Below, one piece after another: positions 42,420 through 58,592 of a DNA stretch of 64,000 nucleotides (position 1 is its first letter; every line of letters begins with the position of its first letter). The position numbers and the translations under genes are program-made. The notes below the pieces were generated by a model, which ran no database searches, was not told where the DNA came from, and worked only from the letters and a program-made list of their open reading frames with translations. The stretch comes from Enterococcus haemoperoxidus ATCC BAA-382 (GTDB lineage Bacteria; Bacillota; Bacilli; Lactobacillales; Enterococcaceae), in contig NZ_KE136480.1 in the NCBI RefSeq assembly GCF_000407165.1, positions 124,001-188,000 of the forward strand, in the 5' to 3' direction.

Positions 42420-42438
42420 TTGACGGCGATTTGACGGC
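42420..42438 (+). repeat. Paired TTGACGGC repeat, right of the integrase gene
   Basis: TTGACGGC at 42420-42427 and 42431-42438 (11-bp spacing), within the integrase 5' leader. It is the same octamer and orientation as the pair at 41136. Confidence 0.55.
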
Positions 42439-42972: not shown

Positions 42973-43052
42973 AGTTATTTTATTTTGATGTAATCAACTG
43001 ATTTTTAGTACTTGATGAGCTATCCTAAGATAACTATAAACGTTGTAATCGA

Positions 43053-43348
43053 ATTTCACTCTAAACAGAGCTAGACCAGTTCACGTAAATTCTCCAGGAG
43101 GATCAGTTTTTATTTCAATCCACTAGCTCTAAACAGAGCTAGACTCAGCGTACTTTTTCACTTTATCAGCGCTACCTTTATTTCAATCCACTAGCTCTAA
43201 ACAGAGCTAGACGCACTATTTGGTCCAAAACAATAGTTAATTCAGGTTATTTCAATCCACTAGCTCTAAACAGAGCTAGACAATTTGTTACAGATATTAT
43301 TTTATGAAATGGGGAATTTCAATCCACTAGCTCTAAACAGAGCTAGAC
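43053..43348 (-). CRISPR. Type I-C CRISPR array, four full repeats plus one truncated, four spacers
   Basis: 33-nt repeats at 43112-43144, 43180-43212, 43249-43281 and 43316-43348 are identical. A 24-nt truncated one (9 internal bases lost) is at 43053-43076. Spacers are 35, 35, 36 and 34 nt. In crRNA orientation (minus strand) the repeat holds an 8-bp palindrome CTAGCTCT / AGAGCTAG and ends GTGGATTGAAAT, the end typical of type I-C. The degenerate repeat is leader-distal, as expected. The array is small, so acquisition may be rare or spacers were lost. Confidence 0.97.
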
Positions 43349-43516
43349 AGTGAAAACGGCAAAAATACACGATATATTTTCGCGTTTTCATAAAAAACAC
43401 TTATAAAATTAAATTCCCATGAGAAAAACAGCTTTTTATTGATAAAAATGGCTAAATTTTGGTGCGGATCCCTTAGCGATTTCATGTGCACTTAGGGTTC
43501 GCACTTAATTTTCTTA
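43349..43516 (-). promoter_or_regulatory. CRISPR leader
   Basis: A 168-bp A+T-rich region lies between the leader-proximal repeat and cas2. It includes an imperfect inverted repeat with GTGCGGAT...CCCT and AGGG..TCGCAC (about 43460-43503) next to cas2. The leader should contain the array promoter and the adaptation signals; I did not assign -10 or -35 boxes. Confidence 0.65.
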
Positions 43517-43807
43517 TTAAAATATCAGTGGCGCTTCTACATCAAAACTCTCCTTTACCCCTACATGCTCAACTTTATTTTGGTAATTATTCCCTAATCG
43601 GTAAATACGTAAACTATCTAATTCTTCATCAATTAAATCAACCAGTTCTTTCTTCAGCTTCGTTAACTCCGTTGCATCAACAACACATTCAAAAACAGAA
43701 TTCTGAACACGTTGTCCATAATCTTGACATTTTTTTGCTACCTTCCTCAAACGACGAGTTCCATTCTTCGAACTTGTTGCGACATCATAAGTAATCAACA
43801 CTAACAT
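43517..43807 (-). CDS. cas2: Cas2, adaptation subunit
   Basis: The start is the ATG at 43807 (MLVLITYDV), 7 bases after AGGTG; 96 residues. The ferredoxin-like fold opens with LVLITYDVATSS, whose Asp is the conserved Cas2 residue, and has RRLRKVAKKCQDYGQRVQNSVFEC. With Cas1 it forms the integrase that inserts new spacers. It is the last gene of the cas operon, next to the leader. Confidence 0.95.
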   Translation of the reverse strand: MLVLITYDVATSSKNGTRRLRKVAKKCQDYGQRVQNSVFECVVDATELTKLKKELVDLIDEELDSLRIYRLGNNYQNKVEHVGVKESFDVEAPLIF

Positions 43808-43816
43808 ACTTTTCAC

Positions 43817-44845
43817 CTACTTCCATAAAAACGGTGGATAACCATCTAAATCACCTCTTAAAAAGCGACTTAATAATAATGCCTGAGAGTAAGGAACTAG
43901 CCCCCAATTGATTTTCTCACCTAAAAATGGATGCTGAATTTGTTCTTGTTTTTTCTCTTGCCATTTTTGAAAGAAGGTACGCCTACCATCATCCGTCAAA
44001 ATGACTGCACCACTTTCTTTTTTGACAAAATCCTTTTCGGTCACCATTTTCTTATTAATCAACGTTAAAACAAAACGATCCGCATAAATCCCTCGCAACT
44101 CTTCCATCAAATCTAATGCTAAAGAAGCTCTACCTGGTCGATCTTGATGCATAAAGCCGACATAAGGATCCAGTCCAACCGTTTCTAATGCAGCAGCACA
44201 TTCTTGCGCTAACAAAGTATACGCTAAAGAAAGCATAGCATTTACATTATCCAAAGGCGGCCGACGGTTTCTACCATAAAAACCGAAATCACTTTTTTGC
44301 TGTAAAATCATTTGATCAAACAATAGAAAATAACGATTCGCAGCTTGTCCTTCGATTCCTCTTAATGTTTCTAAATCCCCAACTTGGCGAATATCTTCAA
44401 TGTATTTTTTTAATTCGCCAGAAATTTGCTTAAAACGCTCGACATCAATTCTCATCGGGTTTTCTCTAGTCATTCGCTCCAACATCCAACGTTGATTGTA
44501 CAATTTACCAATAATAAAATGACGAGCAATTTCTAAGCTTTCTGCTTCTTTATCCGATAGACGATATTGCTTTTTCCGCAATGTGACATTACCAGTTGTG
44601 CCGCCAGTCACTCGACTGCCAAACTTACCAGAATTTGTTAAAAAGGTTATGCCTATATTTTTTTCAGCGCATTTACGCATCAATGCTGGACTAGCACCTA
44701 AATAACCAGAGGTGACAATCGCTTCTATATTATGAAGTGGAACTCTATTTTTCTGTTCATCAATTTTGACGACAATATTCTCACCGTCTAAAGCTAAATA
44801 GGCATCTCGAGTTGTTACAAATAAGGTATTCAACAGTTTTTTCAC
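43817..44845 (-). CDS. cas1: Cas1, CRISPR integrase (type I-C)
   Basis: The start is taken at the GTG at 44845, which overlaps the cas4 stop as GTGA and lies 7 bases after GGAGG; the ATG two codons upstream is only 2 bases from that site. 342 residues. Metal-binding residues fall in RGIEGQAANRYF (Glu), the FMHQDRPGRASLALDLMEELR stretch (His, Asp) and nearby. It catalyses spacer integration together with Cas2, with Cas4 selecting PAM-containing prespacers. Confidence 0.95.
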   Translation of the reverse strand: MKKLLNTLFVTTRDAYLALDGENIVVKIDEQKNRVPLHNIEAIVTSGYLGASPALMRKCAEKNIGITFLTNSGKFGSRVTGGTTGNVTLRKKQYRLSDKEAESLEIARHFIIGKLYNQRWMLERMTRENPMRIDVERFKQISGELKKYIEDIRQVGDLETLRGIEGQAANRYFLLFDQMILQQKSDFGFYGRNRRPPLDNVNAMLSLAYTLLAQECAAALETVGLDPYVGFMHQDRPGRASLALDLMEELRGIYADRFVLTLINKKMVTEKDFVKKESGAVILTDDGRRTFFQKWQEKKQEQIQHPFLGEKINWGLVPYSQALLLSRFLRGDLDGYPPFLWK

Positions 44846-45495
44846 TCGCATAACCTCCGATCTAAGTAACCTTTAACGGTTTGAACATTCATTAATTTAG
44901 GTAAACAGATATTTTGTAGGGAACATTTTTTGCAAAAGTTGCCAGTTTTTACCTTTGGTGTATAGCGTCTAGTCCAATACTGGTGCATTTCTGCTATATT
45001 TTTTTGTAATTCTTCTCGTAAAGCTGGCGTGATCTCGATTTCTTCTCTACGTTTGGTTTCATGATAATATAAATAGCCTTTCGGCACTTCGCAGACAAGC
45101 ATTTCCTCTAGACAAACGGCTTGCGCAGTTAATTGCAAAATATCACTGAGTTCTTGTTTAGGCTTTCCGTGTTTGTATTCAACCGGAACAGGAGAAAAAG
45201 TTCCGGATTCTCCATTTAGAGGTACACCATTTGGATCTTGCACAAATTCCACCACATCACAGATTCCAGTGATTCCTAAGGTTGGTGAATGAATTGGCAA
45301 TGCACGAACAATCAAGCGATCTTTACGCTTCTCTCTAATCGTTGGCTGATCCGCTTTTTCATGCAGATATTGCCCTTCTAACGTTAAAACATTTTCTTGC
45401 CATTGCTGTTCAATATGAATCAATGCCCACTGACGACGGCAAAACAGAAAATGCTGGATGCCTGAAATCATTAAAAAATCCTGTTCATCGTACAT
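44842..45495 (-). CDS. cas4: Cas4, PAM-selecting nuclease
   Basis: 217 residues. The iron-sulfur cysteines are one in HFLFCRRQW near the N-terminus and three in GNFCKKCSLQNICLPK near the C-terminus. RecB-nuclease motifs GICDVVEF and PVEYKHGK lie between. Cas4 processes prespacers and defines the PAM in type I-C adaptation. It starts directly after the cas7 stop codon and overlaps cas1 by 4 bases. Confidence 0.94.
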   Translation of the reverse strand: MYDEQDFLMISGIQHFLFCRRQWALIHIEQQWQENVLTLEGQYLHEKADQPTIREKRKDRLIVRALPIHSPTLGITGICDVVEFVQDPNGVPLNGESGTFSPVPVEYKHGKPKQELSDILQLTAQAVCLEEMLVCEVPKGYLYYHETKRREEIEITPALREELQKNIAEMHQYWTRRYTPKVKTGNFCKKCSLQNICLPKLMNVQTVKGYLDRRLCE

Positions 45496-45496
45496 G

Positions 45497-46354
45497 TTAT
45501 AGCCCTTCGATGACTGTTAGCTCGATCCCTTCTAGTGGTTCCACGGTTACTTTGTAATCGTCAAATGATTTTGCGCGGTCGACTTCAGGAATTTTTTCAA
45601 TTTTTACAGAGCGATGGACTTTCGCAGATGACGCTTTACCCATTTTGCTTGGGTGTTCCCACCAGTAAACCTTTTCGACTGCCATACTACCATCTGGACG
45701 AGCGGATGATGCATCGTTTTCGAAAAGAGTGGTTAGGGCTTCTTTGATCTTTTCTGCATCTGCCTCGGTAAAACCTGTTTTTTCTGCTAGTTGGACGTTG
45801 ATACTGCCGTTGAAGACATAGACGCCAAAGTCGACGAAATGTTTGGTTCCCATGGTGTCTGAGCCTTTTTTGTCACCAGTAACAGAATTCACACTTTTTG
45901 TAATTTGCATCGTGTTGATGTCAATTGGATCTATGCTAACAGCTGTTTGTATCGAAACCGGTCCACGAACACCAACAGACAAATCAGAGCCTTTAAAAGC
46001 AAATACTTGTCCAAAACTTCTAGTATCCATAAATGTTTTACAAGCGACTTCTGCGTAACGATCTGCATCTTTTTTCTTGTCTTTAATGATTGCTTCTAGT
46101 TCTTCGACTGCATCTGCTCGGTCTTTCAAACTTTTAAATCCATCATCTGCACGGTCATCAGACTGAACAAAAATATGTTCACCTAAGTCTTGCAGTCGAT
46201 TACGAATTTTACGTTTGATTGCGACATCTGATATTTCACCAAAACCATCAAAATTTTGTCGTGGGCGATTCCCGTTTAATGGATCACCGTTTGGGTTGGC
46301 ATTTGTTACTGAAACAATTACTTTAAAATCAATTTTATTTTCTAGTGTACTCAT
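45497..46354 (-). CDS. cas7: Cas7c (Csd2), Cascade backbone
   Basis: 285 residues. The start FKVIVSVTNANPNGDPLNGNRPR and DTRSFGQVFAFKG...VGVRGPVSIQ are typical of Csd2 proteins. Several copies polymerise along the crRNA and flip every sixth base. GGAGG precedes the ATG. It is between cas8 and cas4. Confidence 0.95.
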   Translation of the reverse strand: MSTLENKIDFKVIVSVTNANPNGDPLNGNRPRQNFDGFGEISDVAIKRKIRNRLQDLGEHIFVQSDDRADDGFKSLKDRADAVEELEAIIKDKKKDADRYAEVACKTFMDTRSFGQVFAFKGSDLSVGVRGPVSIQTAVSIDPIDINTMQITKSVNSVTGDKKGSDTMGTKHFVDFGVYVFNGSINVQLAEKTGFTEADAEKIKEALTTLFENDASSARPDGSMAVEKVYWWEHPSKMGKASSAKVHRSVKIEKIPEVDRAKSFDDYKVTVEPLEGIELTVIEGL

Positions 46355-46357
46355 TGT

Positions 46358-48256
46358 TTATTCCTCCGTTTTATCTTTTTTATTTTCTAGTTCGTATTTC
46401 TGACTATAGTACCCTAATAGATACTTACCATTTAGATGTTCATCATTATACTGACTTATCTCAAATTTATTTCCTATTTCTTTCAATATATCTTGAAATT
46501 TTTTACCATTTCCCCACAATCTAGATTGATAAGGGATTAAATTTTGTTGAATAATTTTCCAAGTAGTTTCTGGATGCATACTAAAAGCGTTCATATAGCG
46601 AATTGCATTTGTTTGTCTACTTCCCAACTTCCCATTTGCTGCTAAGGCATCTTCCTCTAATTTATCTGCTACAGCTAACATTCTGCCAAATAAATAACTT
46701 CTGTCTGTCTCATTTTTATCTAATGCCACATTTCTTTCCCCCTTTTTGAAATTAAAGTGTTTATTCATTACCGCACACGCAATGCTCAACGTTTTTTGCC
46801 ATTCCCAATTTTCCATACCAACTGGATTGGATGCCCGTTTTAATAAACTTTGAACAATATTTTTAGGAATCATTCGACCATCTATAACGCAAGGAAATAA
46901 TTGTTCCACAGTGTTTTTAACTAAGGTTTCATTCCCTCTTGCACCGTAAACTGCTTCTGCAATATCTCTTAGCGCAGGTGCGCCCCAAAACGTATACCGC
47001 TGCTTATTCTTACTACCATAAGTATGCCGCCAAAAACACGTTTGATGCCACTGCTCAAAGCGTTTAAAATAGTCCACATGTTGAATTGAACGATAATATA
47101 AAATCCCCATCCGCCCAGGTGTTGCTGCATCTAAAATCATGATATAAATAGGTGCATCACGAGTTAAATCCTTTTGATACCCTCTCATTGCTTGTTGAAA
47201 TAATTCTGCAAACTGTTGTGCTGTTGTGTCTGCAGTAACAACCTTAGTTTCTTCTGGAAATAAATTTGCAAATACATCCATACTTGATTCTTCTGGTGAT
47301 GGAACAGCCAATTGCGTTTTACCCCAAACCAAAAATACACGCCCGTCTAAAATAAATCCTTGCTTACCAACCAACCATTTCAGCGCATTATGTGCTTTTT
47401 GTGAAGCCTCATAACTAATCATTGCTACTTGGTTTTTATCTGAAAATCTACCTCTAAATGTAAAATTTTGTAGATCATTTCCTGAAATAATTTTGGCCAT
47501 GTCTCCGCCGTAGCGAACTTTTGATGGATGATTTTCAGTAATTGGCAATTGTTGCCCCGTCACATAATCTAACCCCGCTTCTGGAAGATTCTGACTATAG
47601 TACTGAACATAAGATTCAATCACAGATAAATCTTGCCACACTTCATCGGTTATTATTTCTGCATCATACACAGAAAAACGAACAAATGTTGAAAATTGAT
47701 CGCCAGCAAGAACTGAAAAAATCTCTGGTTTTTCTCCAAATTCAGCTTCCAATTCTTTTTTCCATTTTGGAATGATTTGGTGATCTTTAGCAAGTAATAC
47801 TCGTTCTTCAACCAGATCGCTGATTAATGTTCCTTTTTCTAAATAGGTGAAAATCGCTTGTACTTTTGGATGGGCTTCTGGAGACTGACACCACTCCCTA
47901 AGGTTTCCCATGTATGTTTCATACGAATTATTCCCTTTTTTGTAAATACCACCATAAGATTCAAAATCACCAGCTACATACTGCAAACCATCATGTATCC
48001 CGTGCGGTGTCGGTTTACTTGTTCGTCCTGCGGATTCAATCGTTACCGGAATCACAGTTGGCGCATCTTCTTTAGGAATTACTTTCGCTTCATAAAATTC
48101 ACCTTGAGGTGTTACTCGAACTTCAATTTGAGCATTTTGATAAGCGTGAGCAACTGGTAAAAGAACGATTTCTTTTCCCCATGATGTTCTAATCGGTTTT
48201 CCAACTAAGTCTTGATTTGCTTCGTAAGTTTGATATAGGTCATACAGCCAACTCAT
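46358..48256 (-). CDS. cas8c: Cas8c (Csd1), large Cascade subunit
   Basis: 632 residues. It starts [20 protein letters not shown], a typical Csd1 start, and contains [23 protein letters not shown]. It recognises the PAM. In type I-C the gene also makes a short internal product (Cas11c) from its 3' part; I did not place that start. It overlaps the cas5 stop by ATGA. Confidence 0.94.
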
Positions 48257-48972
48257 TCCTCCCCCTCCAATACTTCAGTTAATTGATCGACAGATTCGAT
48301 TTCATTAAAAGTGAAAGGTTTCATCTGCATGCTTTTTAATGGTCTAATCAGTTCACATGTTTCAGGACGTAGAAAATGTATCACACCATTCTCCATAATC
48401 GGTTGCCATAACCGAACTGCTAATTCATCTTTTCCAGTTTCATCTGGATAGGATAATCCATGAACCATCGTTCCAAAATGAAGTTCCCCATAATGATCGT
48501 AAAAGCCTTCTGACTCACCGAAATCTACAGGTTCTACGTAGCCTTGGCATTCTCTAGTACCTAGGAAAATATCTCTTCGGCCTCCCACTTTGATTGCTCG
48601 TTTTAAAATTTGAAAATGCTTATGTTCATTCCAATCTTGTTTTAAATCTGGTCGATATTGATTAAATTCAAAATGCACCTTCACTTCATAACACGGCTGT
48701 TTTAAATACGTGTAATAGGCTAAATCACTGGCGCTACTATCATTGTATTTCATAGGACGAATGCCTTTTGATTCCATTTGAATAGGATTAACAATCCGAA
48801 CTTCGTCAACATAATACGTAATACTTGGCTTCCAATAAATCGACTCTGTGATTCCTTTTAATGCCTGATATGTGGGTACTTGATAGGTCATTTTTTCCCC
48901 ACCCATTTTTGTGACAGGATCAGTGAATAACGCATACTCACCATAAACTTTGAAACTTACCTGATTTCTCAC
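48253..48972 (-). CDS. cas5c: Cas5c (Cas5d), crRNA-processing endonuclease and Cascade subunit
   Basis: The GTG at 48972 ([11 protein letters not shown]) has GGAGG seven bases upstream and gives the family's usual N-terminus; the ATG at 48990 overlaps the cas3 stop but would add six unusual residues. 239 residues with [28 protein letters not shown] and the EHKHFQI region that holds the catalytic Lys-His of Cas5d. In type I-C, which lacks Cas6, this protein cuts the repeat hairpin and keeps the 5' handle. Confidence 0.92.
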
Positions 48973-48989
48973 TACTCTTCCTCCATTCA

Positions 48990-51425
48990 TTAAAAAATAA
49001 GTTCGTCACTTGCTGCTAAAGCTGTTGGATCAGTTCCAAATTCATTTGAATATGAATTTTCGGTCAAAGCAAAAATATTCCCATTATACAGAGGAAAAAT
49101 AGCACCGTTTTTGTTCAATTCTGTTATTTCATAGTCAAATAAATTCACCATGTATTGTTGTGCTTCTTTTATTAACGGTACAACCTCATTCGGGGATAAT
49201 TCGCCATTCAAATCTTCGATGATTCTTGCTCCTTGGGCATTGTCTTTTTTATAAGGGACAATAACGGATGTCGTAAAATCTTCGATTACTTCAAAATGAT
49301 GACCTATTGTTTGAGGACTACTACCTAATACTAATCCCAATTTTTTCCGATGCTTGTCAAGATATTGTTGAGAAGCATTTTTTTGGTTCCCAAGCAAGGA
49401 AAATAACGTTAACGAACTTTTTTTGACGGGATACACAAGCTCATTTTCAATCTTTTCATGATTATAATAACGTTCAAAATAGCTAGTTTGTGCTTTAGCG
49501 GAAAGTAATTCTCCGTCATATAATCTTGGTTGCTCATTATTATCTTTTATCATTCGTTCTGTCACTTCTTTTCCCACCGAAATTTCTTTTAAACGGGAGA
49601 GTTTTTCAAGTTCTGATGAAACATTGACAAGATAAACTGCTTGTTTTCCAGCTTCTCCATTTCGATTACAACGACCTGCCGCTTGCGCCATTGAATCTAA
49701 TCCTGCTGTAGAACGAATCACTGACTCAAAACTGATATCTACCCCTGCTTCAATCAGTTGTGTTGTGATGCATAGTATTTTTTGATCTTTTTTAGTATTT
49801 TTAAGTTGCTTTCTTAATTCTTTTAGAATATCTTTTCGATGAACTGGACACATCGCTGTACTTAAATGAAAGATTTTTACATTACTAAGTGAACGTTCTT
49901 TTAATTCTTGATACATTTTCAGAACAGCTGATTTTGTATTTAATATCATTAACAAACTATTTTTTTCTTCCAAAATTTCCTGACCAAAATCAGCTAACTC
50001 GTTTAATGACCACGCGCCATTTTTCAGTTTTCCTACAAGATCTACACGCTTAAATGACTTCTCTATCTCCGATAAGTTTTGAATCATCTCACCATCTTTT
50101 TCAAGTTCTTTGGGTAATTTATCTAATGAAGGTTGTGTTGCGGTACACAAAACACTGGTTGTTTGTCCGTGATTTTTTAAATAGTTCAAAGATTCCGTAA
50201 ACATATGAGTACATTTGATTGGAACGCCTTGTGCTTCATCAAAAATAATCACTGCATTTTGTAAATTATGAAATCGTCTTGGATTTCTAGTCCCACGACT
50301 AGAAATAACATTAAGAAACTGTACCATTGTTGTAAAAATGATTGGTGAATCCCAATTGTCTTTCATTAATTCCTGCGTTTGTTCTAATGACTCTGATTCA
50401 TCTTCTTGATCTACTCTTTCTTCTGTAAATACATTGGAATGATGTTCTAGGATATGCTGGTCATCCTCTAGGATATTCCGCACGACTTGAGCATTCTGTT
50501 CAATAATTGTAGTGAACGGGACAACAAAAATAATTCGATCTTTGCTATGTTGAAGAGCATGGTTTAAAGCAAAACGTAAACTTGCTAACGTTTTACCTCC
50601 TCCAGTCGGGATCGACAGACTATAGATTCCCGTTGGATGTCCAGCGAAACGCTTACATGTTTCAGACATTTCTGTTCGTAACTGATTGATAGCTGTTTTC
50701 GGTACGGATTTCTTCAATTCTTCGATATGCTTTTCTAAATGTTGCTGATAGTTTTTCAGTAAAGTGTGCGTATCTACTTCTACACTTTCTTCTTCTCGAT
50801 GTGCTTCAAACAACATGGTGTTGGTTCGATCTGCATCAAGTAAACAGCTATAGACAAATTTTAGTAGAAAAAAATAAGCGTGTTCCGTTTTTATGTTTTG
50901 ATGAAATTGTTCGATTTCTTTATTCGCTACTCGTAAATCACTCTGAAATTCAGCTTCTGATTTTACCTCTTTAAAAAATCGTTCTTTCATTAAATCATAC
51001 TCTGGAATTGTTTTTTCTACTACTCGTTCTAAATAAACAGAGCGCATATCGTCTGGTTTATAAAAATCTTGTAGCCCATTACTACTATGATGGGAGATAA
51101 TCGCGTCGCCAATAATTTCAGCTAGGAATAATTGAAATGGATTCACTTCTTCTTGATGTAAATACTCAAACAGTAACTTACCGCCAGCTGTTGAATGATC
51201 CACACTACCTCGATTAACGCTGTTTGGGTCTTTTACAGCTTGTCTTAAATAATATTGAAATTCGTCAGAGTACTTGCCGAAATCATGAAGAAGACCAGCT
51301 AAATAGCAAGTCTTTTCTAAATTGAATTTTTTCCCCCAGTGACCACTTAGTTTTGCGCTATTTTTTAAATGATTTTTTAATAATTGCTCTTCTCCATCCA
51401 ATTCCCTAATATGTGCTATAAACAT
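48990..51425 (-). CDS. cas3: Cas3, nuclease-helicase
   Basis: 811 residues. The N-terminal HD nuclease has [15 protein letters not shown] and ISHHSSNG. The superfamily 2 helicase has Walker [13 protein letters not shown], motif [21 protein letters not shown] and [10 protein letters not shown]. It degrades the target after Cascade binding. It is the first gene of the operon, with ATG at 51425 and AAGGAG upstream. All catalytic motifs look intact, so interference should work. Confidence 0.96.
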
Positions 51426-51457
51426 ACCAAAACTCCTTAATTGTCGTCTAAATGTCT

Positions 51458-51476
51458 TAAATGTATTATATCATTT
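51458..51476 (-). promoter_or_regulatory. cas operon promoter (extended -10)
   Basis: TGATATAAT on the minus strand (TATAAT 51466-51471) is a strong extended -10 about 40 bp before the cas3 ATG; no good -35 exists. It follows directly after the terminator of the small peptide gene. The strand complementary to the -10 also shows a weak pseudo-spacer match (see findings). Confidence 0.6.
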
Positions 51477-51478
51477 CA

Positions 51479-51511
51479 AAAAAAAATAGCGATATTTTTT
51501 TCAATATCACT
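51479..51511 (-). terminator. Terminator of the small hydrophobic peptide gene
   Basis: AGTGATATT pairs with AATATCGCT (9 bp with one G-T) around a 6-nt loop and is followed by eight T. The stop codon is inside the left arm. Confidence 0.85.
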
Positions 51512-51590
51512 TCTTGTTTTTTCTAACGATAATCTGCCAAACAACAATGCCAATAATTAAAATCACTAGGACATATCCTTCTATATACAT
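51507..51590 (-). CDS. 27-residue hydrophobic peptide, candidate CreT-like toxin
   Basis: MYIEGYVLVILIIGIVVWQI followed by IVRKNKK: one transmembrane helix with a basic tail, the design of small membrane-damaging toxins of type I toxin-antitoxin systems. The ATG at 51590 has AAAAGGAG at ideal spacing, a textbook promoter (TTGACT, 17 bp, TAAAAT) and its own terminator, so it is a complete gene despite its size. Its leader (51615 on) is the sequence matched by the pseudo-spacer of the divergent CRISPR-like RNA. Toxicity is inferred, not shown. CreT toxins I know of act as RNAs that trap tRNAs, so a peptide toxin would be a variation. Confidence 0.75.
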   Translation of the reverse strand: MYIEGYVLVILIIGIVVWQIIVRKNKK

Positions 51591-51611
51591 TGTGACAACT
51601 CCTTTTAATTC

Positions 51612-51649
51612 TTCTTTTATGTATTTTGTTCTTTGTAAGAAAAATCCAC
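51612..51649 (+). promoter_or_regulatory. Predicted Cascade binding site: TTC PAM plus protospacer in the peptide-gene leader
   Basis: TTC (51612-51614) is the type I-C PAM. The next 15 bases TTTTATGTATTTTGT match the pseudo-spacer of the RNA at 51814 except at positions 6 and 12, the bases that Cascade flips out and does not read. The site covers the start of the peptide transcript, so bound Cascade would block transcription, while the short match should not trigger cleavage. Confidence 0.7.
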
Positions 51650-51660
51650 TGTTCTATATC

Positions 51661-51689
51661 ATTTTATCGTTTAAGAAAGAAATAGTCAA
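51661..51689 (-). promoter_or_regulatory. Promoter of the small peptide gene
   Basis: TTGACT (51684-51689), a 17-bp spacer and TAAAAT (51661-51666) on the minus strand. Transcription should start near 51654, about 64 nt before the ATG. Confidence 0.8.
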
Positions 51690-51741
51690 CATCAATTTAA
51701 CATATATCGACTAAAAGAATTTTTTACACAAATTTTTATGC

Positions 51742-51747
51742 TATAAT
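51742..51747 (+). promoter_or_regulatory. Extended -10 promoter of the CRISPR-like RNA
   Basis: TGCTATAAT gives an extended -10 (TATAAT 51742-51747) with a T-rich -35 region. It directs transcription to the right, away from cas3, starting near 51755. Confidence 0.7.
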
Positions 51748-51754
51748 ATTCTGT

Positions 51755-51887
51755 AAACACTGATTAATTAATGTCGTAATCTATAGTAAATTTTAGAATG
51801 CGTGGATTGAAATTTTTAAGTATTATGTCTTTGTACGTAACTACAAGGAATAGCCTGGGATAACTACTATCCAGGCTTTTTTTGATT
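51755..51887 (+). ncRNA. CreA-like CRISPR RNA gene (degenerate repeat plus pseudo-spacer plus terminator)
   Basis: Roughly 130 nt. A degenerate repeat at 51781-51813 aligns without gaps to the 33-nt array repeat at 22 positions, including the full GTGGATTGAAAT end (51802-51813) that forms the crRNA 5' handle. The pseudo-spacer begins at 51814 (TTTTAAGTATTATGT). A strong terminator hairpin AGCCTGG.ATA / TATCCAGGCT with seven T (51851-51883) stands where a second repeat would be. With Cascade it should act as a guide to 51615. Alternatively it may pair directly with the peptide mRNA, since it is also antisense to its leader. Confidence 0.75.
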
Positions 51888-52134
51888 TATTTTTGTTAAA
51901 TAACAGTAAGAAAAAATAACTCAGATATTTAATGTCTCTTCTAAATAAAAAACAATAAGCCATTGAGCTCATCTCTTTTATGCGATACATATCTACATCA
52001 CAAAAGAAAGAGCGAGCATTTTAGCTTAATAAACAAAAAATAATCGACCACTCTAAAAAAAGTTTTGTTATTTTTCCTTATATATAAGGAGCAAAAATCG
52101 GGTGTTATTTAATCTCTTTCCACAAAAAAATTCG
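51888..52134. other. Intergenic region, nothing assigned
   Basis: A+T-rich sequence between the CRISPR-like RNA and the next promoter. Short frames exist but none has a convincing ribosome site and length. An AAGGAG at about 52086 leads only to a very short GTG frame. Confidence 0.35.
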
Positions 52135-52163
52135 TTGTGAACAAGCCACTCTTTCTGTATAAT
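52135..52163 (+). promoter_or_regulatory. Promoter of structured RNA copy 1
   Basis: TTGTGA (52135-52140), a 17-bp spacer and TATAAT (52158-52163). The transcript would run from about 52170 to the terminator at 52400. Confidence 0.65.
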
Positions 52164-52205
52164 AATATTCATAGGATAGAAATAACTAACATTAAAAATA
52201 AATAA

Positions 52206-52284
52206 ATTGGCTCTTCGTGGTCTGGCGCCAACCAAACCAGAAGCCTTGTTTAAACAGTAGCACCTGTCAAACAACTTTGCCAAT
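52206..52284 (+). ncRNA. Structured RNA element, copy 1 (unrecognised)
   Basis: Closing stem ATTGGC / GCCAAT. Hairpin 2 is CTTC.TGGT / ACCAGAAG with the loop motif GGCGCCAACC (52224-52233). Hairpin 3 is TTGTTT / AAACAA over ACAG / CTGT with the motif AGTAGCACCT (52256-52265). A second copy at 52584 keeps both loop motifs while the stem sequences change together. It has its own promoter and terminator, so it is an independent RNA of about 230 nt. No riboswitch or ribozyme class I know fits. Confidence 0.6.
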
Positions 52285-52364
52285 AGCGTAAGGATCGATC
52301 TATTTTTGTTGTACACGTCTATAGTGACGACACATTTTATAGTTTCTTTATCTTGCCTATTTGT

Positions 52365-52400
52365 AGACGATTACAGGTCACCTGTGGATCGTCTTTTTTT
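52365..52400 (+). terminator. Terminator after structured RNA copy 1
   Basis: AGACGAT / ATCGTCT with an inner palindrome ACAGGTCACCTGT, followed by seven T. Confidence 0.85.
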
Positions 52401-52508
52401 ATTTCTATCCTACAAATTTGAGACGAAGAAGAACTTTCAGGGGAACAACGTTCATTTTATTCACCTTGTACTTTTCATCATCAGCTCTGTCTTATAGCCA
52501 GTCGCAGT

Positions 52509-52568
52509 CCTTCAATTCTTAGAGCTTTAGCTTTTAGAAATTGATGCGATCGAAGCGACAGCGTAGTG
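52509..52568. repeat. Enterococcal palindromic intergenic repeat, copy A
   Basis: 60 bp with a core near-palindrome CTTAGAGCTTTAGCTTTTAG and the tail GATCGAAGCGACAGCGTAGTG-like sequence. A second copy of very similar sequence lies at 55122-55180. The preceding ACCTTGTACTTTTCATCATCAG (about 52463) also recurs near 54978. Confidence 0.65.
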
Positions 52569-52583
52569 ATTCAAAGCAAAAAA

Positions 52584-52657
52584 GGCACTTCATTGTTCGG
52601 CGCCAACCGTTCAATGAAGCCCTGAATAGAAAGTAGCACCTCTCTATCCAAGTTGCC
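52584..52657 (+). ncRNA. Structured RNA element, copy 2 (unrecognised)
   Basis: Closing GGCA / TTGCC. Hairpin 2 is CTTCATTG / CAATGAAG with GGCGCCAACC (52599-52608). Hairpin 3 is ATAGA / TCTAT with AGTAGCACCT (52632-52641). Both loop motifs are identical to copy 1, although the stem sequences differ but still pair. It lies about 200 bp before the gene at 52857, so it could be its leader, while copy 1 ends in a terminator. Confidence 0.6.
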
Positions 52658-52856
52658 CATTTACCAGTACCGTAGTACTAGCTTCTTTATTGTACCTAAT
52701 TCTTGTAAGAATTTCTAGACACTTTTTGAATTTTTCTCTGGTTACACAAAGAAGTTCCCAACATACTGGCATAATTCAACAATAGAGACGGACAGCTTTC
52801 CCCTTTTTCTTTCGCTCTACATACAAAAATCAAACAAAGAGAAAAGGAGAATTACC

Positions 52857-53129
52857 ATGAAAAATTCCGTCATCTGCATTAAAACTGTCCCGTATCAAGA
52901 GATTCTAAATCTTCGAGATTCACTGGAACGTTTAGAATCTTGGAAAGAACCATTGGAAGTTCTTGAAAAATATTTTACCAATCCAACAACACCAATCAAT
53001 AAAAAACAGGTCGTTAAACAGTATTACGCTAGTGCCAAATTGTTTGAAACATTTAATAAAGAATTTAAGTTATTGATAGCAGAGTCGCAAAAACAATTGG
53101 CTATTATTACACAAAATCAAAATAGTTGA
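52857..53129 (+). CDS. Small hypothetical protein downstream of the structured RNAs
   Basis: 90 residues, soluble, Lys/Glu/Leu-rich and probably all-helical (two long helices around a PTTPIN turn near residue 45). AAAGGAG precedes the ATG, so it is probably expressed. No family recognised. No obvious neighbour partner. Confidence 0.55.
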   Translation: MKNSVICIKTVPYQEILNLRDSLERLESWKEPLEVLEKYFTNPTTPINKKQVVKQYYASAKLFETFNKEFKLLIAESQKQLAIITQNQNS

Positions 53130-53231
53130 TTAAAAAAATGAAAGGAATCATCTTTTGCGTATTTAGATAGTGTCAGGAACAAAAATATGATTGGACTATT
53201 TTAAGTCACATTAAAAATGGGAGGGATTATT

Positions 53232-53366
53232 TTGGATTTACTAAAAGCAACAAAACAAGGAGAGAGAATTGTTATTATCTTTCCAAAAAAATTAGCTATA
53301 AAAGAAAATCAAGAATTCTACTACTATAAAAATAAAGAAGAGATTATTTCATTTATTCCAAAATAG
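53232..53366 (+). CDS. Small AbrB/MazE-like swapped-hairpin protein (orphan antitoxin-like)
   Basis: 44 residues from a TTG start after a GGGAGGG ribosome site. KQGERIVIIFPKKLAIKENQ followed by EFYYY and ISFIPK has the pattern of the AbrB/SpoVT fold used by MazE/PemI antitoxins: a basic KQG turn, a hydrophobic strand, then PKKL. The C-terminal toxin-binding tail is absent and no toxin gene follows, so it is either a remnant or a small DNA-binding protein. Family assignment is tentative. Confidence 0.5.
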   Translation: MDLLKATKQGERIVIIFPKKLAIKENQEFYYYKNKEEIISFIPK

Positions 53367-53436
53367 AACGTCTTTCTCGCGAAACAATTCATTAAAAATT
53401 TTAATAGGCGCTTGTTTTCAAGTAGTTTTTGTATAA

Positions 53437-53480
53437 AAGCGAAAGACCTAGAAATGAATACTATTTCTAAGCCTTTCGCT
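53437..53480. terminator. Large hairpin, possible terminator
   Basis: AGCGAAAG.C.TAGAAAT pairs with ATTTCTA.G.CTTTCGCT around 7 nt. The T-tract is poor on both sides, so it may be a stable stem rather than an efficient terminator. Confidence 0.45.
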
Positions 53481-53575
53481 ACTATTACTGATAAAGAGTT
53501 TTCCTATGCAAAATCACTGTGATAAAAATCGTTATTGTCTTGTTCTATCACAATAAACAACCTGTCCACTTATCA

Positions 53576-53794
53576 TTAAATAAGCTCCTGCATCATTTCA
53601 GCATGAGAAATACTTTCGTCATTTATTTGATGCTTTTTCATCAGATTATTGTATGTTTCTAAATCAATCTGATTTTCTAGGCTTTCCAAAATTGTTGTCT
53701 TAGCAAGTTCAGATAAGGATATCTCTTTAGAGTTAGCCAGCCTTTGCATAAAATCTTTTTCATCGTTAGATAATCTAAATGACACTGTATTCAT
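53576..53794 (-). CDS. Orphan ribbon-helix-helix antitoxin-like protein (DUF6290 type)
   Basis: 72 residues. The N-terminal VSFRLSNDEKDFMQRLAN and ISLSELAKTTILESLENQ form a ribbon-helix-helix DNA-binding unit. The C-terminal part with YNNLMKK...SHAEMMQEL fits the toxin-binding tail of RelB/DUF6290 antitoxins. No RelE/ParE toxin follows in the 200 bp downstream. It may neutralise a distant toxin or be a relic. Confidence 0.7.
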   Translation of the reverse strand: MNTVSFRLSNDEKDFMQRLANSKEISLSELAKTTILESLENQIDLETYNNLMKKHQINDESISHAEMMQELI

Positions 53795-53906
53795 TCAGTT
53801 ACCTCCTCTTCAAACATTCGTCTTACTGATTATCGTAATACATTTACATATATTTTTCAATTGTACTAAAACTACATTTTGGATTGTTCCGCTACTAATA
53901 AACACT

Positions 53907-54320
53907 TTACTTCTCAATCCCATAATCAATCTCAATAACCAAGTTGTCTCCATCTAAAAAATACTTGCCCGTACCTTGAATTCCTGAAAGTTCTTCCGTT
54001 CCAGTGTTCTCTTTTATCACTAATTCATTGTGCGGAAGTCCCTTTTCAAAAGTCCCTCGTTCTTCTAAGACAAACGTGCCTTTGCGACCTTTTAGCACCC
54101 CTTCAAAGAACAGATACCCTAAATAGGTCGCTTCTGATAGATGAGGGTTTTCTTGATTGTACTGCGAGTAATGCAATAAATAATCTGCTTTGAAACTGCC
54201 TGTGATTTCTTGTAAGGCTTTATACCAAGCAGAAGCTTTCGCCACTGGTTGTTCTGTTGGGATATCTGCCAATAATTCTTCCTCCCATGAAACAAGCTCA
54301 AAGGTACTTTTAGCCAACAT
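53907..54320 (-). CDS. DUF3224-like small protein
   Basis: The start at 54320 (MLAKSTFEL) has GGTGAGG upstream and overlaps the end of the PfpI gene by 11 bases. 137 residues of probable beta-barrel type with ITGSFKADYLLHYSQ, GTFVLEERGTFEKG and GTGKYFLDGDNLVIEIDY, typical of DUF3224 proteins of unknown function. Translational coupling links it to the PfpI/DJ-1 protein. Confidence 0.7.
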   Translation of the reverse strand: MLAKSTFELVSWEEELLADIPTEQPVAKASAWYKALQEITGSFKADYLLHYSQYNQENPHLSEATYLGYLFFEGVLKGRKGTFVLEERGTFEKGLPHNELVIKENTGTEELSGIQGTGKYFLDGDNLVIEIDYGIEK

Positions 54321-54930
54321 GATCCTCACCAGCATTTCTTAGTTCTTGTTTGATCGCTTCATAGTAGCCTAACTTGTAAAAGTTATACCATTGTTCCACT
54401 TCTTTTTCAGGCATTACTTGAAGTGCCAACAAAATTTCTCTTGCAAACTCTAAATGCCCAGTTCCATTGGCTGTAATCAGGTTGTTTGCTCTTATTGCTT
54501 GAACTTCTAAATAGTGATTCCCACCAGTATAACGCGTGCCAGCATAATCTTGTAGGTCTTGTAATTGGTTGCTCGTATGCTTGTGATCATTTAGTAACCC
54601 TAGACTTCCCAAATAAACAGTCGCATCACAAATGGCTGCAATCACAGCACCTTGTTGTTCTGCTTTTGCTACTAAAGCATCGACTTCTTTTGCTTTATCC
54701 GTTCGCCAAGATTTTCCACCAATTAAAATCAACGCAGCAAACTCTTTTTGACACGCTTCGGCAAGCGTATAATCTGGTAATGTCGAAAAACCGCCCATTG
54801 AATGAATCGCTTGTTTTTCATTTGAAACAGTTTTAACCGTGACCCCCTCTTGCTGATTCAGTTCAGCCGCAATCGATGCTGCTTCCCAATCTGCATAATC
54901 TTCTAATAATACAAAAAACACTTCTGTCAT
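54310..54930 (-). CDS. DJ-1/PfpI-family protein
   Basis: 206 residues. FFVLLEDYADWEAASIAAEL at the N-terminus and the nucleophile elbow GAVIAAICDATVYLGSLGLL with the conserved Cys mark a DJ-1/PfpI glutamine-amidotransferase-like fold (class of YoaZ-type proteins). Members act as stress chaperones, glyoxalases or peptidases. It is co-transcribed with the DUF3224-like gene. Confidence 0.8.
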   Translation of the reverse strand: MTEVFFVLLEDYADWEAASIAAELNQQEGVTVKTVSNEKQAIHSMGGFSTLPDYTLAEACQKEFAALILIGGKSWRTDKAKEVDALVAKAEQQGAVIAAICDATVYLGSLGLLNDHKHTSNQLQDLQDYAGTRYTGGNHYLEVQAIRANNLITANGTGHLEFAREILLALQVMPEKEVEQWYNFYKLGYYEAIKQELRNAGEDHVG

Positions 54931-54944
54931 GATTTATTCCTCCT

Positions 54945-55325
54945 TATATACAGGTAACAACGTTCCGCTATGCTACACCTTGTACTTTTCAACATCAGTT
55001 CGTTTTATTCACTGTGTTTCAAAGCAAAAGCGAAGTGGGCTCGTTTAACTCTGACAGGAAAATAGGAAAATCTAACTGAGGTGCTTTTTGCCTCATTTAG
55101 ATTTTATCTTTTTCCCGAAGACCTTCAATCCTTAGAGCTTTAGCTCTTAGGAATTGTTGAGATCGAAGCACAGCGTAGTGCTAGCCCGCGTAGCTAGATA
55201 ACATTAAAAGCGAAGCAGGCTCGTTCAACTCCGACTGGAAAATAGGAAAAATCGATTATGGTGCTTTTTACCACAAACTATTTTTATCTTTTTCCCGAGG
55301 AGCTAGCCCGCGTAGCTAGATACCT
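54945..55325. repeat. Composite intergenic repeats upstream of the PfpI gene
   Basis: Three kinds of repeat alternate. A long hairpin element opens with GCGAAG.GGGCTCGTT and closes with ATCTTTTTCCCGA; its copies are 55027-55120 and 55207-55300. A palindromic 59-bp element with CTTAGAGCTTTAGCTCTTAG lies at 55122-55180, matching 52509-52568. CTAGCCCGCGTAGCTAGAT occurs at 55181 and about 55303. No coding frame is present. They look like non-autonomous repeat elements. Confidence 0.7.
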
Positions 55326-55365
55326 GTTGGAATTCATCATACAACAGAAGTGTGACAACTGATTG

Positions 55366-56304
55366 TCAGCTTTTGTAAAGAAAATACATTTCTTCTATTT
55401 TCGCTTTGACTGCATCAACTATGCTCGGCGGTTCAATAACTCGCACTTTATCTTGTAAACGTAAAATAAAGTCTACTGATTTTTTATGATTTATCAGTGG
55501 AAATACAATCGTTCCAGTAGTTGATTTCTTTTCATGCTCCTGAAAAAATTCTGCACCTAGTTTATCGATCAAGTATAATTTATCTTTTTGCTCATAAGTT
55601 AAGACGATTTGCTGAATATCTGGCGATACCATCGCTTCTAAATAATCAATTTCAGACTCTCTGGTTAGCTCCACAGGGTCTAGTGGTCTAGGTTCAAATC
55701 GCTCCTCTAACAGCGTATATGTTTGAATCCTTGTCAGTTTAAATAAGCGAAATGCCTTTCTTTTTAAACAAAAACCATACAGATACCAATGTGAAGCTTT
55801 AAAAATAAGCTTGTATGGTTCTATTTCCCGTTCAGAGTAGCCTTTCTTAGAATGGTATTGAATCACAATGATTTTCTGTGTTGCTATCGCTTGTCGTAAA
55901 TCATCTAATTTATTTTTTCCGTCATTTGGCTTGTACCAAGAAGATAGATCGATCAACAAATCACTTTGCGGCTGTTGTACCTTCGTATTCGGGGCAATTT
56001 TTGCCAGCAAAGGACTAATTTCAGAGGATGTTGAAATACTTTGAATCGCTGAAAGTCCTGTCATGATCGCCGAAATATCCTCAGTTGAGAAGACATGTTT
56101 ACTTACTTTGTAACCATCTACGATACCGTAACCGCCATGAATCCCTGAATAAGAAATAATCGGAATCCCCGCTAAATTCAGGGTTTCGATATCACGATAA
56201 ATGGTTCGTTTAGATACTTCCAGCCGTTCTGCCAACCCTTTGGCGGTCATTCGGTCATTTTCCGTCAATAAATTTACCAAGCTGAGCAAGCGATCGATTT
56301 TCAT
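55366..56304 (-). CDS. WYL-domain transcriptional regulator (YafY type)
   Basis: 312 residues. An N-terminal DeoR-like HTH (LLTENDRMTAKGLAERLEVSKRTIYRDI) is followed by a WYL domain with HWYLYGFCLKRKAFRLFKL and a C-terminal WCX extension. WYL proteins sense small ligands or nucleic acids and mostly repress; some control phage or DNA-damage genes. Targets are unknown; the adjacent PfpI/DUF3224 operon is the nearest candidate. Confidence 0.85.
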   Translation of the reverse strand: MKIDRLLSLVNLLTENDRMTAKGLAERLEVSKRTIYRDIETLNLAGIPIISYSGIHGGYGIVDGYKVSKHVFSTEDISAIMTGLSAIQSISTSSEISPLLAKIAPNTKVQQPQSDLLIDLSSWYKPNDGKNKLDDLRQAIATQKIIVIQYHSKKGYSEREIEPYKLIFKASHWYLYGFCLKRKAFRLFKLTRIQTYTLLEERFEPRPLDPVELTRESEIDYLEAMVSPDIQQIVLTYEQKDKLYLIDKLGAEFFQEHEKKSTTGTIVFPLINHKKSVDFILRLQDKVRVIEPPSIVDAVKAKIEEMYFLYKS

Positions 56305-56474
56305 AATTTCTCCTTTTCACTATATCTATACAGATAAAAAAGGAATCCATTTACTAAATGCTCATCGATTCCTTCTTTCTTGATTTTTCTATTATCATTA
56401 TACTTCGTAACGGGTTATCACACAATTTAATCCAGTAAACAAACAGTCCAAAATCAGAATTTCTCTACGTGGCT

Positions 56475-57131
56475 CTACAAAATAATATTATCCTTCAAAA
56501 TCTCCAGATCTGTAATGACAATCTTCCGTTCCTGAATCTTGATCGCTCCTAGATCCTTCAACTGCTGCATCATTCGATTGACACTACTAGCAGAAGTGAT
56601 GCCACAAAAATGAGCAATCTCTTCATTTGTCACCACAAAATCAATCAATAATCCGTCATCTATTTGCACACCAAAAGTATCGTACAACTCATAAATCTGG
56701 GTACAAACTGCGCCAAATTTTCCATTCATCAACATCTGCTGCATCTTCTTCATTGAATACATCAAACGTACACGATAATAATCTTTCACATACATCTGCA
56801 AGTCTTTGCTTTGATTGATATCCTTCCAAAACTGTACACGATCGATTTGATACAGCTCTGCCTGGTCAGACTCAATTCGAATGTTAAACGGCGCATCAAT
56901 AAACTGAGAATATTCATCCCTCAATAGTGAAACGATTTCCAAACTATTGATGTACCTAAGATTGAATTCTCGTCCATCTGGCGAAATAACGCTAGTTTTG
57001 ATAATACCGCTTTTTAAAATATAAGCATATCGGTCTTGTAACCCTTCATAAGTAAGGTACGTTCTCTTTTTCTTCACTACGATTGGAAATGCATGATCGT
57101 CTAAGTATTCTTGTAACACGTGGCTGTCCAT
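56475..57131 (-). CDS. Crp/Fnr-family regulator, PrfA/Ers-like
   Basis: 218 residues: an N-terminal cyclic-nucleotide-binding-like beta-roll (AYILKSGIIKTSVISPDGREFNLRYI) without a clear cAMP pocket, and a C-terminal winged helix with VTNEEIAHFCGITSASSVNRMMQQL. Size and layout resemble PrfA of Listeria and Ers of E. faecalis. It is divergent from an MFS gene, with an inverted repeat between them. In E. faecalis, Ers is reported to act on an MFS gene, which makes this pairing attractive; identity with Ers is not proven. Confidence 0.78.
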   Translation of the reverse strand: MDSHVLQEYLDDHAFPIVVKKKRTYLTYEGLQDRYAYILKSGIIKTSVISPDGREFNLRYINSLEIVSLLRDEYSQFIDAPFNIRIESDQAELYQIDRVQFWKDINQSKDLQMYVKDYYRVRLMYSMKKMQQMLMNGKFGAVCTQIYELYDTFGVQIDDGLLIDFVVTNEEIAHFCGITSASSVNRMMQQLKDLGAIKIQERKIVITDLEILKDNIIL

Positions 57132-57209
57132 TTAGTAACTCCTCACCATTTATATGAAAATTTCCTGTAAAAGCTATTCTTATTTAAGATGATAACACAT
57201 CGAATAGCA

Positions 57210-57236
57210 ACAACAAATGTATATGACTTTTGTTGT
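57210..57236. promoter_or_regulatory. Inverted-repeat operator between the Crp/Fnr regulator and the MFS gene
   Basis: ACAACAAA (57210-57217) and TTTGTTGT (57229-57236) form an 8-bp inverted repeat with 11 bases between. The left arm with flank, CAACAAATGT, also resembles the element I recall as the Ers box of E. faecalis. The spacing fits a PrfA/Crp-type dimer. Confidence 0.55.
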
Positions 57237-57383
57237 GCTTTTTTGTTACTAACTTTTTTTTAAAACAAATCCGCATTTTTTTTACTAACTTTTTTCGTAT
57301 AGTATCCATACAACTAGCTTTCAGAAAAGAATTGTAATTTGCAATTTAAGCTTATCCTAACAAGAAAGAAGGAACGTGCAACA

Positions 57384-58592
57384 ATGACGGAACATTCAGA
57401 AGAAAAATTATTCAATAAAGGGTTTATCAGCATTACGTTGATCAATTTTGTGGTCTATCTCGTTTATTACTTATTGATGGTAATCATCGCAGTGATTGCG
57501 CAAGATACGCTTCATGCTTCATTAGGTCAAGCCGGTCTGGCCTCTGGTATTTATATTATTGGTACTTTATTTGCTCGGCTATTTATGGGAAAAATGTTGG
57601 AGTTACTTGGTAGAAAAGTGGTCTTGCGATATGGTGCTTTATTTTATCTCATCACAACGATTGCTTATCTCTATATTCCAAGTATCGGGATTCTTTATTT
57701 TGTTCGTTTACTTAATGGCTTTGGCTATGGAACGGTGTCGACTGCGACAAATGCGATCGTGACGGCCTATATTCCTAAATCAAAACATGGTGAAGGAATC
57801 AATTATTATGGATTAAGCACTAGCTTAGCTGCAGCGATTGGTCCATTTATTGGGATGATTTTGTTAAATACAACGAGTTTTTATTTTATTATTTCGTTTT
57901 CGATCGTGCTGATTTTCCTGACAACGATTGCTTGTTTTATCTTCCCTGTAAAAAATATTCAATTAAGTGTAGCTCATAAAGCCAGTTTGTCACGTTGGAC
58001 ATTTGATAGTTTTATTGAAAAAAAAGTGCTATTTATTTCGTTTATTGCCTTTTTGATGGGACTTTCTTATTCAAGCGTCCTTTCATTTCTTTCCTCTTAT
58101 GCCAAAGTGATCGATCTGGTCGGTGCTAGTTCCTTTTTCTTTGTAGTCTATGCGCTGGTGATCACAGCGACTCGTCCAATGTCTGGCAGAATCTTTGATG
58201 CTCGTGGCGAAAATGCGGTGATGTATCCTAGTTTTGTCTTTCTAACGGCAGGATTACTCTTATTGAGTGTGACCACAAGTGGTTGGATGTTGCTTGTTTC
58301 AGGTGGATTGATTGGTTTAGGTTATGGTACGTTTATGTCTAATGGTCAAGCAATTTGTTTAAAAGCCAGTCCCAGCAGTCATCGAATCGGTATTGCCTTG
58401 TCCACTTACTTCATTGGTTTAGATCTTGGTTTGGGTGTAGGACCTTATATTTTAGGAGAGTTGCGAAGTGTCCTTTCATTCCAAGGTTTATACTTCGTTG
58501 CAGGTTTGATTCCAGTGATTTGTATAATTCTATATGCCTTGTTTTACAAATCAAAAGCACCTATTTATGAAAATAAATTGAACGAACAATAA
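57384..58592 (+). CDS. Major facilitator superfamily transporter
   Basis: The start is the ATG at 57384 (MTEHSEEK) with AAGGAA upstream; 402 residues with 12 helices in two halves. The motif-A-like GTLFARLFMGKMLELLGRKVVLR follows TM2. It is the drug-efflux (YfnC/EF-type) class with no obvious substrate. The upstream region holds a direct repeat TTACTAACTTTTTT at 57246 and 57282 and the inverted repeat at 57210. It is probably controlled by the divergent Crp/Fnr-like regulator. Confidence 0.82.
   Translation: MTEHSEEKLFNKGFISITLINFVVYLVYYLLMVIIAVIAQDTLHASLGQAGLASGIYIIGTLFARLFMGKMLELLGRKVVLRYGALFYLITTIAYLYIPSIGILYFVRLLNGFGYGTVSTATNAIVTAYIPKSKHGEGINYYGLSTSLAAAIGPFIGMILLNTTSFYFIISFSIVLIFLTTIACFIFPVKNIQLSVAHKASLSRWTFDSFIEKKVLFISFIAFLMGLSYSSVLSFLSSYAKVIDLVGASSFFFVVYALVITATRPMSGRIFDARGENAVMYPSFVFLTAGLLLLSVTTSGWMLLVSGGLIGLGYGTFMSNGQAICLKASPSSHRIGIALSTYFIGLDLGLGVGPYILGELRSVLSFQGLYFVAGLIPVICIILYALFYKSKAPIYENKLNEQ

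Follow-up and report, generated by a model that had tools for sequence, protein, structure and literature searches.

Beside the type I-C cas operon of Enterococcus haemoperoxidus ATCC BAA-382, within the 64,000 nucleotides analysed here (the window), lies a locus that is probably a type I-C relative of CreTA and CrePA, at which Cascade with a small-RNA guide would block the gene of a candidate membrane-peptide toxin and thereby penalise loss of CRISPR–Cas. Judged from sequence, repression of the peptide gene by Cascade is highly likely, and given such repression our expectation that the peptide is harmful is equally strong. In the mechanism we propose, the small RNA would be cut at its repeat hairpin by Cas5c to give a crRNA-like guide with a normal handle, starting with UGGAUUGAAAU and continuing into a pseudo-spacer. 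Cas5c–Cas8c–Cas7c with this guide would bind a PAM-flanked partial match just downstream of the peptide start site and stop transcription of the gene; Cas3 cleavage would not ensue, the match of about 15 nt with its flip-out mismatches being too short. If the complex were lost or inhibited, the membrane peptide would be made and harm the cell, and this release would be the penalty for losing CRISPR–Cas. The features of the locus are as follows.

43044–43348, minus strand: CRISPR array in which the repeat GTCTAGCTCTGTTTAGAGCTAGTGGATTGAAAT is complete four times and broken once (sequence)
43517–51425, minus strand: type I-C operon cas3-cas5c-cas8c-cas7c-cas4-cas1-cas2 (PADLOC matches for all seven proteins)
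51479–51512, minus strand: intrinsic terminator that ends the peptide gene ahead of the cas3 promoter (fold, then a T run)
51507–51590, minus strand: 27-codon ORF for a hydrophobic peptide with a single transmembrane (TM) segment, MYIEGYVLVILIIGIVVWQIIVRKNKK, a CreT/CreP-like candidate toxin (ORF with RBS)
51599–51606, minus strand: RBS of the peptide gene, AAAAGGAG (sequence)
51689–51661, minus strand: predicted promoter of the peptide gene, TTGACT-17-TAAAAT (consensus match)
51612–51648, plus strand: protospacer with PAM TTC (51612–51614), spanning about +5 to +42 relative to where the peptide transcript is predicted to start
51739–51747, plus strand: extended -10 of the guide RNA gene, TGCTATAAT, TG-C-TATAAT, with a poor -35 (sequence)
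About 51755–51883, plus strand: creA-like guide RNA gene (promoter, degenerate repeat, guide and terminator)
51775–51802, plus strand: decayed repeat hairpin of 8–9 pairs with one mismatch, abutting the handle
51803–51813, plus strand: 11-nt crRNA-type 5′ handle TGGATTGAAAT, the same as the end of the array repeat (sequence identity)
51814–51848, plus strand: pseudo-spacer, positions 1–15 of which match the target except 6 and 12
51852–51883, plus strand: intrinsic terminator that ends the guide RNA and occupies the second-repeat position (hairpin 51852–51877, T run)

A sequence-only reading of this DNA had described a 27-codon hydrophobic gene with promoter, RBS and terminator, and ORF, RBS, promoter and terminator fold were all located. 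Promoters throughout this work are predictions, called as consensus matches; that of the peptide gene has the top score (10/12) among eight promoter-like sites in 51400–51950, a stretch that averages 4.3 such sites when shuffled. The terminator fold has -9.4 kcal/mol (z -5.4), and a simple terminator scan listed none on either strand around the peptide gene. The peptide reaches a Kyte–Doolittle maximum of 2.42 in a 19-residue window and matches no Pfam or NCBIfam family above cut-off; its top match below the cut-off, a short viral transmembrane family (E 0.021), resembles generic hydrophobicity and was set aside. It is a singleton among the 22 genus genomes searched. It weakly resembles the E. 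termitis cargo in that protein's C-terminal half (I-[DE]-G-x-VLV and a basic tail; 8/25 identical, single-comparison E 0.001), which suggests, at the level of sequence, common descent of the two.

In the operon, cas3, cas5c, cas8c and cas7c are near full profile length, and none of the seven genes is cas6; we know of no type I-C system that has one. Four more arrays with related repeats lie on contig C1 of the same genome, near 664, 838, 2138 and 2194 kb, and Cas3 has one match in the whole genome at E ≤ 1e-60, so that one effector may serve five arrays. Just past the window array is an ORF (41303–42394) that we take, by eye and from a motif, to be integrase-like. Related direct repeats of 21–99 nt occur at 52204–52660 and 54976–55322 (for example, 52503–52556 and 55116–55169 are 87% identical); they have no Rfam match and are possibly small RNA or type I toxin–antitoxin relics.

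The guide RNA gene is divergent from the peptide gene, and the extended -10 and terminator that had been ascribed to it were both found. Its degenerate repeat sits outside the array and is linked to the cas genes (51775–51813, 350 bp from cas3). The earlier claim of a 22/33 copy of the array repeat with a complete end held when the match was recomputed over 64 kb, with 51781–51813 the best non-array match. Since 20/33 is also reached at three unrelated places in the window, identity alone is weak, and what makes this repeat stand out is its exact GTGGATTGAAAT end. For the repeat hairpin, a stem with a longer loop (51775–51802), flush with the handle, is the better reading, and this stem (CGTA-A-TCTA/TAGA-A-TGCG) stops exactly where the stem of the array repeat stops. 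The hairpin is no better than shuffles (36/200 equal it), a flush stem of equal quality occurs at 4.5% of positions, which is a modest statistic, and flush stems are weak in two related loci, L016 and L056. A single repeat is seen in the window, with the terminator in place of a second one flanking the pseudo-spacer. Four other sites in the genome carry a lone handle, with no repeat-like context visible by eye in the 45 nt upstream, and Rfam at gathering scores gave no match over 40000–58000. The 3′ part of the pseudo-spacer, 51829–51848 (CTTTGTA...TACAAGG), forms a hairpin of its own and also matches the target after a gap of 1 nt; this stretch may have begun as a second repeat that decayed, or be what is left of a spacer taken from the cell's own DNA.

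The pseudo-spacer matches the target from 51615 onwards at positions 1–5, 7–11 and 13–15 and is mismatched at 6 and 12; beyond position 15 the guide shifts register by 1 nt, after which CTTTGTA matches. Both parts of this pairing had been noticed in the sequence-only reading, which placed positions 1–15 against 51615–51629 beside TTC, and the site proved to be the sole one in 64 kb with 15 in-register positions (every sixth left free); its PAM is TTC. The second-best site has 13 in-register positions and no TTC-type PAM, and the pattern of PAM plus target occurs once in the 3.58 Mb genome. Among 20,000 dinucleotide-shuffled guides, one equalled the match at any of the 17 TTC sites in 51426–51900. 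Chance was considered as the origin of the guide–target pairing and rejected. The target lies in the leader of the peptide gene, about 190 bp from cas3, with the terminator between, and none of the 46 array spacers of the genome matches 51426–51900 with at least nine in-register positions. As reported for the type I-C system of Xanthomonas, with PAM TTC, killing needed 27 matching bp (PMC8406640), which argues that the short match in the window would not lead to cleavage; crRNA processing there is reported to need cas5d, csd1 and csd2 (PMC8406640).

For the survey of relatives, with one genome per species, loci carry numbers: L004 is the window, L005 Enterococcus plantarum, L007 E. moraviensis, L008 E. 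ureilyticus, L010 a sister of L008, L011 Enterococcus sp. DIV0212c, L012 E. quebecensis, L013 E. termitis and L015 E. rivorum. Cas3 was searched for in overlapping sets of 105 family, 395 order and 398 class genomes, with matches at E ≤ 1e-60 in 22, 31 and 52 of them, respectively. Subtype in the relatives was mostly judged by Cas3 similarity, cas3 and the array repeat being the elements checked, and arrays with I-C-type repeats were present in 19/20 family loci fetched. The handle was sought outside arrays in about 0.9–1.5 kb upstream of 63 Cas3 loci, then at 20 more class loci and at 81 loci from genomes and one viral contig, a set that partly repeats earlier genomes and in which three loci hold fewer than 400 upstream bases. 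Most surveyed Cas3 loci have no module. A close Cas3 occurs in 12 genus genomes. Ten of these carry a module upstream of cas3, with six distinct guides among them, and in all ten the guide matches a PAM-flanked target; the other two, L011 and L012, have no handle in 1.5 kb. The search of enterococcal type I-C loci that the sequence-only reading had proposed recovered the degenerate repeat and a matching guide/target pair in 10/12 genomes, and the peptide itself in 1/22.

The 63-locus scan found 25 ectopic handle sites. For each, the target was taken as the site with the most matches in 20 nt, irrespective of PAM or position, and this best target lies beside TTC in 15/25 and beside CTC in 3/25, with TTC making up 2.2% of the 3-mers in the scanned upstream stretches; in three of the 15 (L010, L056 and L057) the TTC site ties with another and came first by sort order. 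One of the CTC cases, a second site in L077, looks like chance. Two modules were found later, L119 among the 20 class loci and L156 in the 81-locus set. Isolated well-kept repeats (e.g. L145, L154, L184 and L203) have no matching self target and serve as natural negatives, and the best site of L198 is next to TTC, yet mismatched at positions 2, 3, 7 and 10. For L006, shuffling the guide 500 times gave 21 guides with a prefix match as long as the observed one somewhere within 1.5 kb. Viral contigs contained one Cas3 locus (L213), without a module; DNA similarity to 51426–51900 in plasmid and phage collections and a genome-contig scan with the window Cas3 alone each gave zero matches.

These pairs were compared position by position in 16 modules from several families, with 12 distinct guides. 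Left out were L017 (weak match, mismatch at 4), L057 (guide the same as in L056) and the later-found L119 and L156, while L059 was kept though its TTC site merely ties, which brings in some circularity. Mismatches number 0/80 at positions 1–5, 12/16 at 6, 2/80 at 7–11, 8/16 at 12 and 11/16 at 18, and matching fades past about position 17. Positions 6 and 12 together are mismatched in 20/32 cases versus 2/160 at 1–5 plus 7–11 (Fisher 6.6e-17; 1.4e-13 over the 12 distinct guides), and among distinct guides each of the two matches in 4/12, near chance. Type I Cascade flips out every sixth base. The mismatch profile indicates the guide positions that count in natural I-C binding. L006 and L007, from two sister species, have homologous cargo and guides, and at positions 1, 14, 16 and 20 a change in the guide is accompanied by one in the target, so that the two match in both loci; the guide alone changed nowhere, 19 and 21 changed in the target only, and at 11, 18 and 23 both sides changed without being matched in both. 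Independent drift of pseudo-spacer and target, which the sequence-only reading had named as a refutation, was not seen, given the paired guides in ten genomes and the L006/L007 co-changes. For the guide, comparative genomics is decisive.

The same data bear on the possibility that the locus is an inert relic without function, in which a solo repeat has decayed beside a self-derived spacer, as the low repeat identity (22/33) might suggest and as the 1-nt slip of register past position 15 would be expected of a decaying old self-derived spacer. Neutral decay, however, would not spare positions 1–5 and 7–11 in 12 distinct guides while 6 and 12 match in 4/12, matched co-changes are unexpected under it, and the promoter and terminators appear intact, making a relic very improbable.

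The predicted geometry of the target varies between loci. Counted from the cargo start site that the closest consensus promoter on the cargo strand predicts, the protospacer with its PAM begins at +3 to +6 in the window, L006, L013 and L015, at +17 in L005 and at -14 in L007; in several loci further promoters are candidates. No cargo promoter above threshold was found in L009 and L014. The L010 protospacer lies over the pemIK promoter's -35, ahead of the predicted start site, and L008 has the same target, with its sole predicted pemIK promoter further on and the start site at least 82 nt past the target. Four loci (the window, L006, L007 and L015) have a guide antisense to the cargo mRNA, as would be the case in a classical type I toxin–antitoxin in which an antisense RNA pairs with the leader of the peptide mRNA without Cascade, and a hydrophobic peptide is a typical type I toxin. 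In L005, L009, L013 and L014, by contrast, guide and cargo mRNA run in the same sense. Since the target strand flips between species, RNA–RNA antisense pairing is not the common mechanism, whereas Cascade binding to DNA can be. The L010 target upstream of the predicted start site also speaks against pairing with the mRNA, and a PAM and a 6-nt periodicity of mismatches would be meaningless for it. We therefore find a classical type I system hardly credible here.

The cargo differs across the 12 genus genomes with a close Cas3. The 27-aa one-TM peptide occurs in the window only, two-TM peptides of 50–62 aa occur in seven genomes (L005, L006, L007, L009, L013, L014 and L015) and a PemI–PemK pair in two (L008 and L010), and in L011 and L012, the genomes without creA, only fragments of a two-TM gene remain. 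The two-TM ORF of L015 has a poor RBS, is absent from the RBS-filtered ORF scan and was confirmed by translation. A two-TM query found true matches in 5/103 family genomes (own included), all at these loci, and one spurious match; it misses the diverged E. termitis and E. rivorum versions, so that absence elsewhere is not proven. In three pairs of two-TM genes dN (0.19–0.25) is below dS (0.45–0.62), which indicates that the two-TM cargo is translated and the protein under selection, L009/L014 being too close to tell. Neither the window peptide nor any of the three two-TM cargos examined has a KilA-N domain, and Pfam and NCBIfam gave these peptides no family above cut-off. PemK matches PF02452 at 4.9e-23 and PemI matches NF047400 at 1.9e-30; the order is pemI-pemK-creA in both loci, with pemIK pointing away from cas3. 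L008 and L010 thus present a type II toxin–antitoxin whose upstream region is targeted by a degenerate I-C guide.

Further genes of this kind were seen nearby. The cas3 flank is a hot spot of toxin–antitoxin genes. A pemI-like sequence without pemK lies near creA or its remnant in L006, L007 and L012, as if one slot alternates cargos, and Fst-like type I toxin ORFs lie a few hundred bases past creA or its remnant in L005, L007, L009, L012 and L013, at about 560–1100 of the upstream stretch, that of L005 matching PF13955 at 1.3e-10. A creA-like gene in L077 (about 1370–1417 of the upstream stretch) has a guide that matches a PAM-flanked site apparently within the gene's own promoter region. The guides of L023, L056/L057 and L059 target the region just upstream of cas3, as CreR does, which suggests autoregulation of cas in other Bacilli.

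CreR-like autoregulation could in principle apply to the window as well: Cascade would tune cas expression, and the peptide would be a leader ORF on a transcript reading into cas3. Peptide and cas3 share direction in the window and in the two-TM relatives, and the cas3-proximal guides of L023, L056 and L059 fit such a scheme, although in the window the peptide gene is separated from cas3 by a terminator and a separate cas3 extended -10, the target in L008/L010 is upstream of a pemIK that faces away from cas3, and that of L015 is about 600 nt from cas3. We consider it quite unlikely. Alternatively, repression by Cascade and guide may be real and the peptide non-toxic, for example a regulator or a phage-response peptide, in line with its lack of a match to any toxin family. 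The presence of PemIK in the same slot in two species, the decay of the cargo in two genus genomes without creA, and the toxins that make up the published CreT/CreP cargos argue against this, and we hold a harmless cargo to be unlikely.

Beyond the window, we judge it reasonably likely that I-C loci of Enterococcus and other Bacilli hold a Cascade-wired cargo slot beside cas3, in which one co-evolving guide controls interchangeable killers (one-TM, two-TM or PemIK), that the same type of guide autoregulates cas elsewhere, and that these guides are read chiefly at positions 1–5 and 7–11, a natural-selection readout of the I-C flip-out seed. If our reading of the window is true, losing CRISPR would switch on a probable toxin, and removing Cascade genes of type I-C may carry a cost unless the cargo is removed with them. 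E. plantarum, E. moraviensis, E. ureilyticus, E. termitis and E. rivorum offer a small testable system.

Shmakov et al. 2023 reportedly predicts standalone repeats that control cas and cargo genes, toxin–antitoxins included, in type I, and may include I-C. By title and the start of the abstract, the literature checked held no paper on a type I-C module, the surveys of Shmakov 2023 and Liu 2023 lying outside this check. That a type I-C version with a membrane-peptide toxin is undescribed fits the literature examined; priority is not proven. A review of December 2025 asks whether CreTA-like mechanisms are widespread in other CRISPR types and whether non-FtsZ toxins couple to other types (PMC12737573). 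Our analysis would answer both questions in silico, with a subtype that lacks cas6, membrane peptides as cargo and a CRISPR guide that targets the region upstream of a PemIK pair.

The window locus shares with the CreTA of Haloarcula/Halobacterium I-B and Acinetobacter I-F a degenerate repeat-derived guide, a partial PAM-adjacent match and linkage to cas, and an 11-bp seed is reported for the archaeal systems (PMC8501985, PMC9458426, PMC10097628). In those I-B and I-F systems CreT is described as a small RNA toxin, as in the type VIII definition, whereas the candidate toxin here is a predicted peptide; most creA there have two degenerate repeats (PMC8501985, PMC9458426, PMC10097628), although one or two are given in PMC9458426, so that two are not strictly defining, and earlier creTA are all said to surround the cas6 of a type I or III system (PMC10097628). 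CrePA (Shu et al.) places a protein toxin under Cascade and a crRNA-like RNA (as cited in PMC12737573); its CreP typically has KilA-N and interferes with FtsZ (as cited there), whereas the cargos here are PemIK or membrane peptides. The guide of CreR is of the same kind (as cited in PMC13131331 and PMC12737573), and CreR is described from I-B, I-E and V-A (as cited in PMC13131331). L023, L056 and L059 look like I-C versions of it, while the window guide targets the cargo and not a cas promoter. Type I toxin–antitoxins such as Fst and Hol-Tox likewise combine a tiny hydrophobic toxin with a small RNA, but the window peptide has no family match above cut-off and the proposed action is DNA targeting, not antisense. 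The nearest analogue is the I-E CreTA of Citrobacter rodentium, in which CreT is reported to be a translated 96-bp ORF and loss of Cascade to be costly unless the CreTA region is also deleted (PMC12055562). Both loci have a small ORF beside cas3, a CreA on the opposite strand and a partial, PAM-flanked target at the promoter; that of Citrobacter differs in being I-E, in a target that overlaps the UP element and in an ORF reported as having no sequence relative (PMC12055562).
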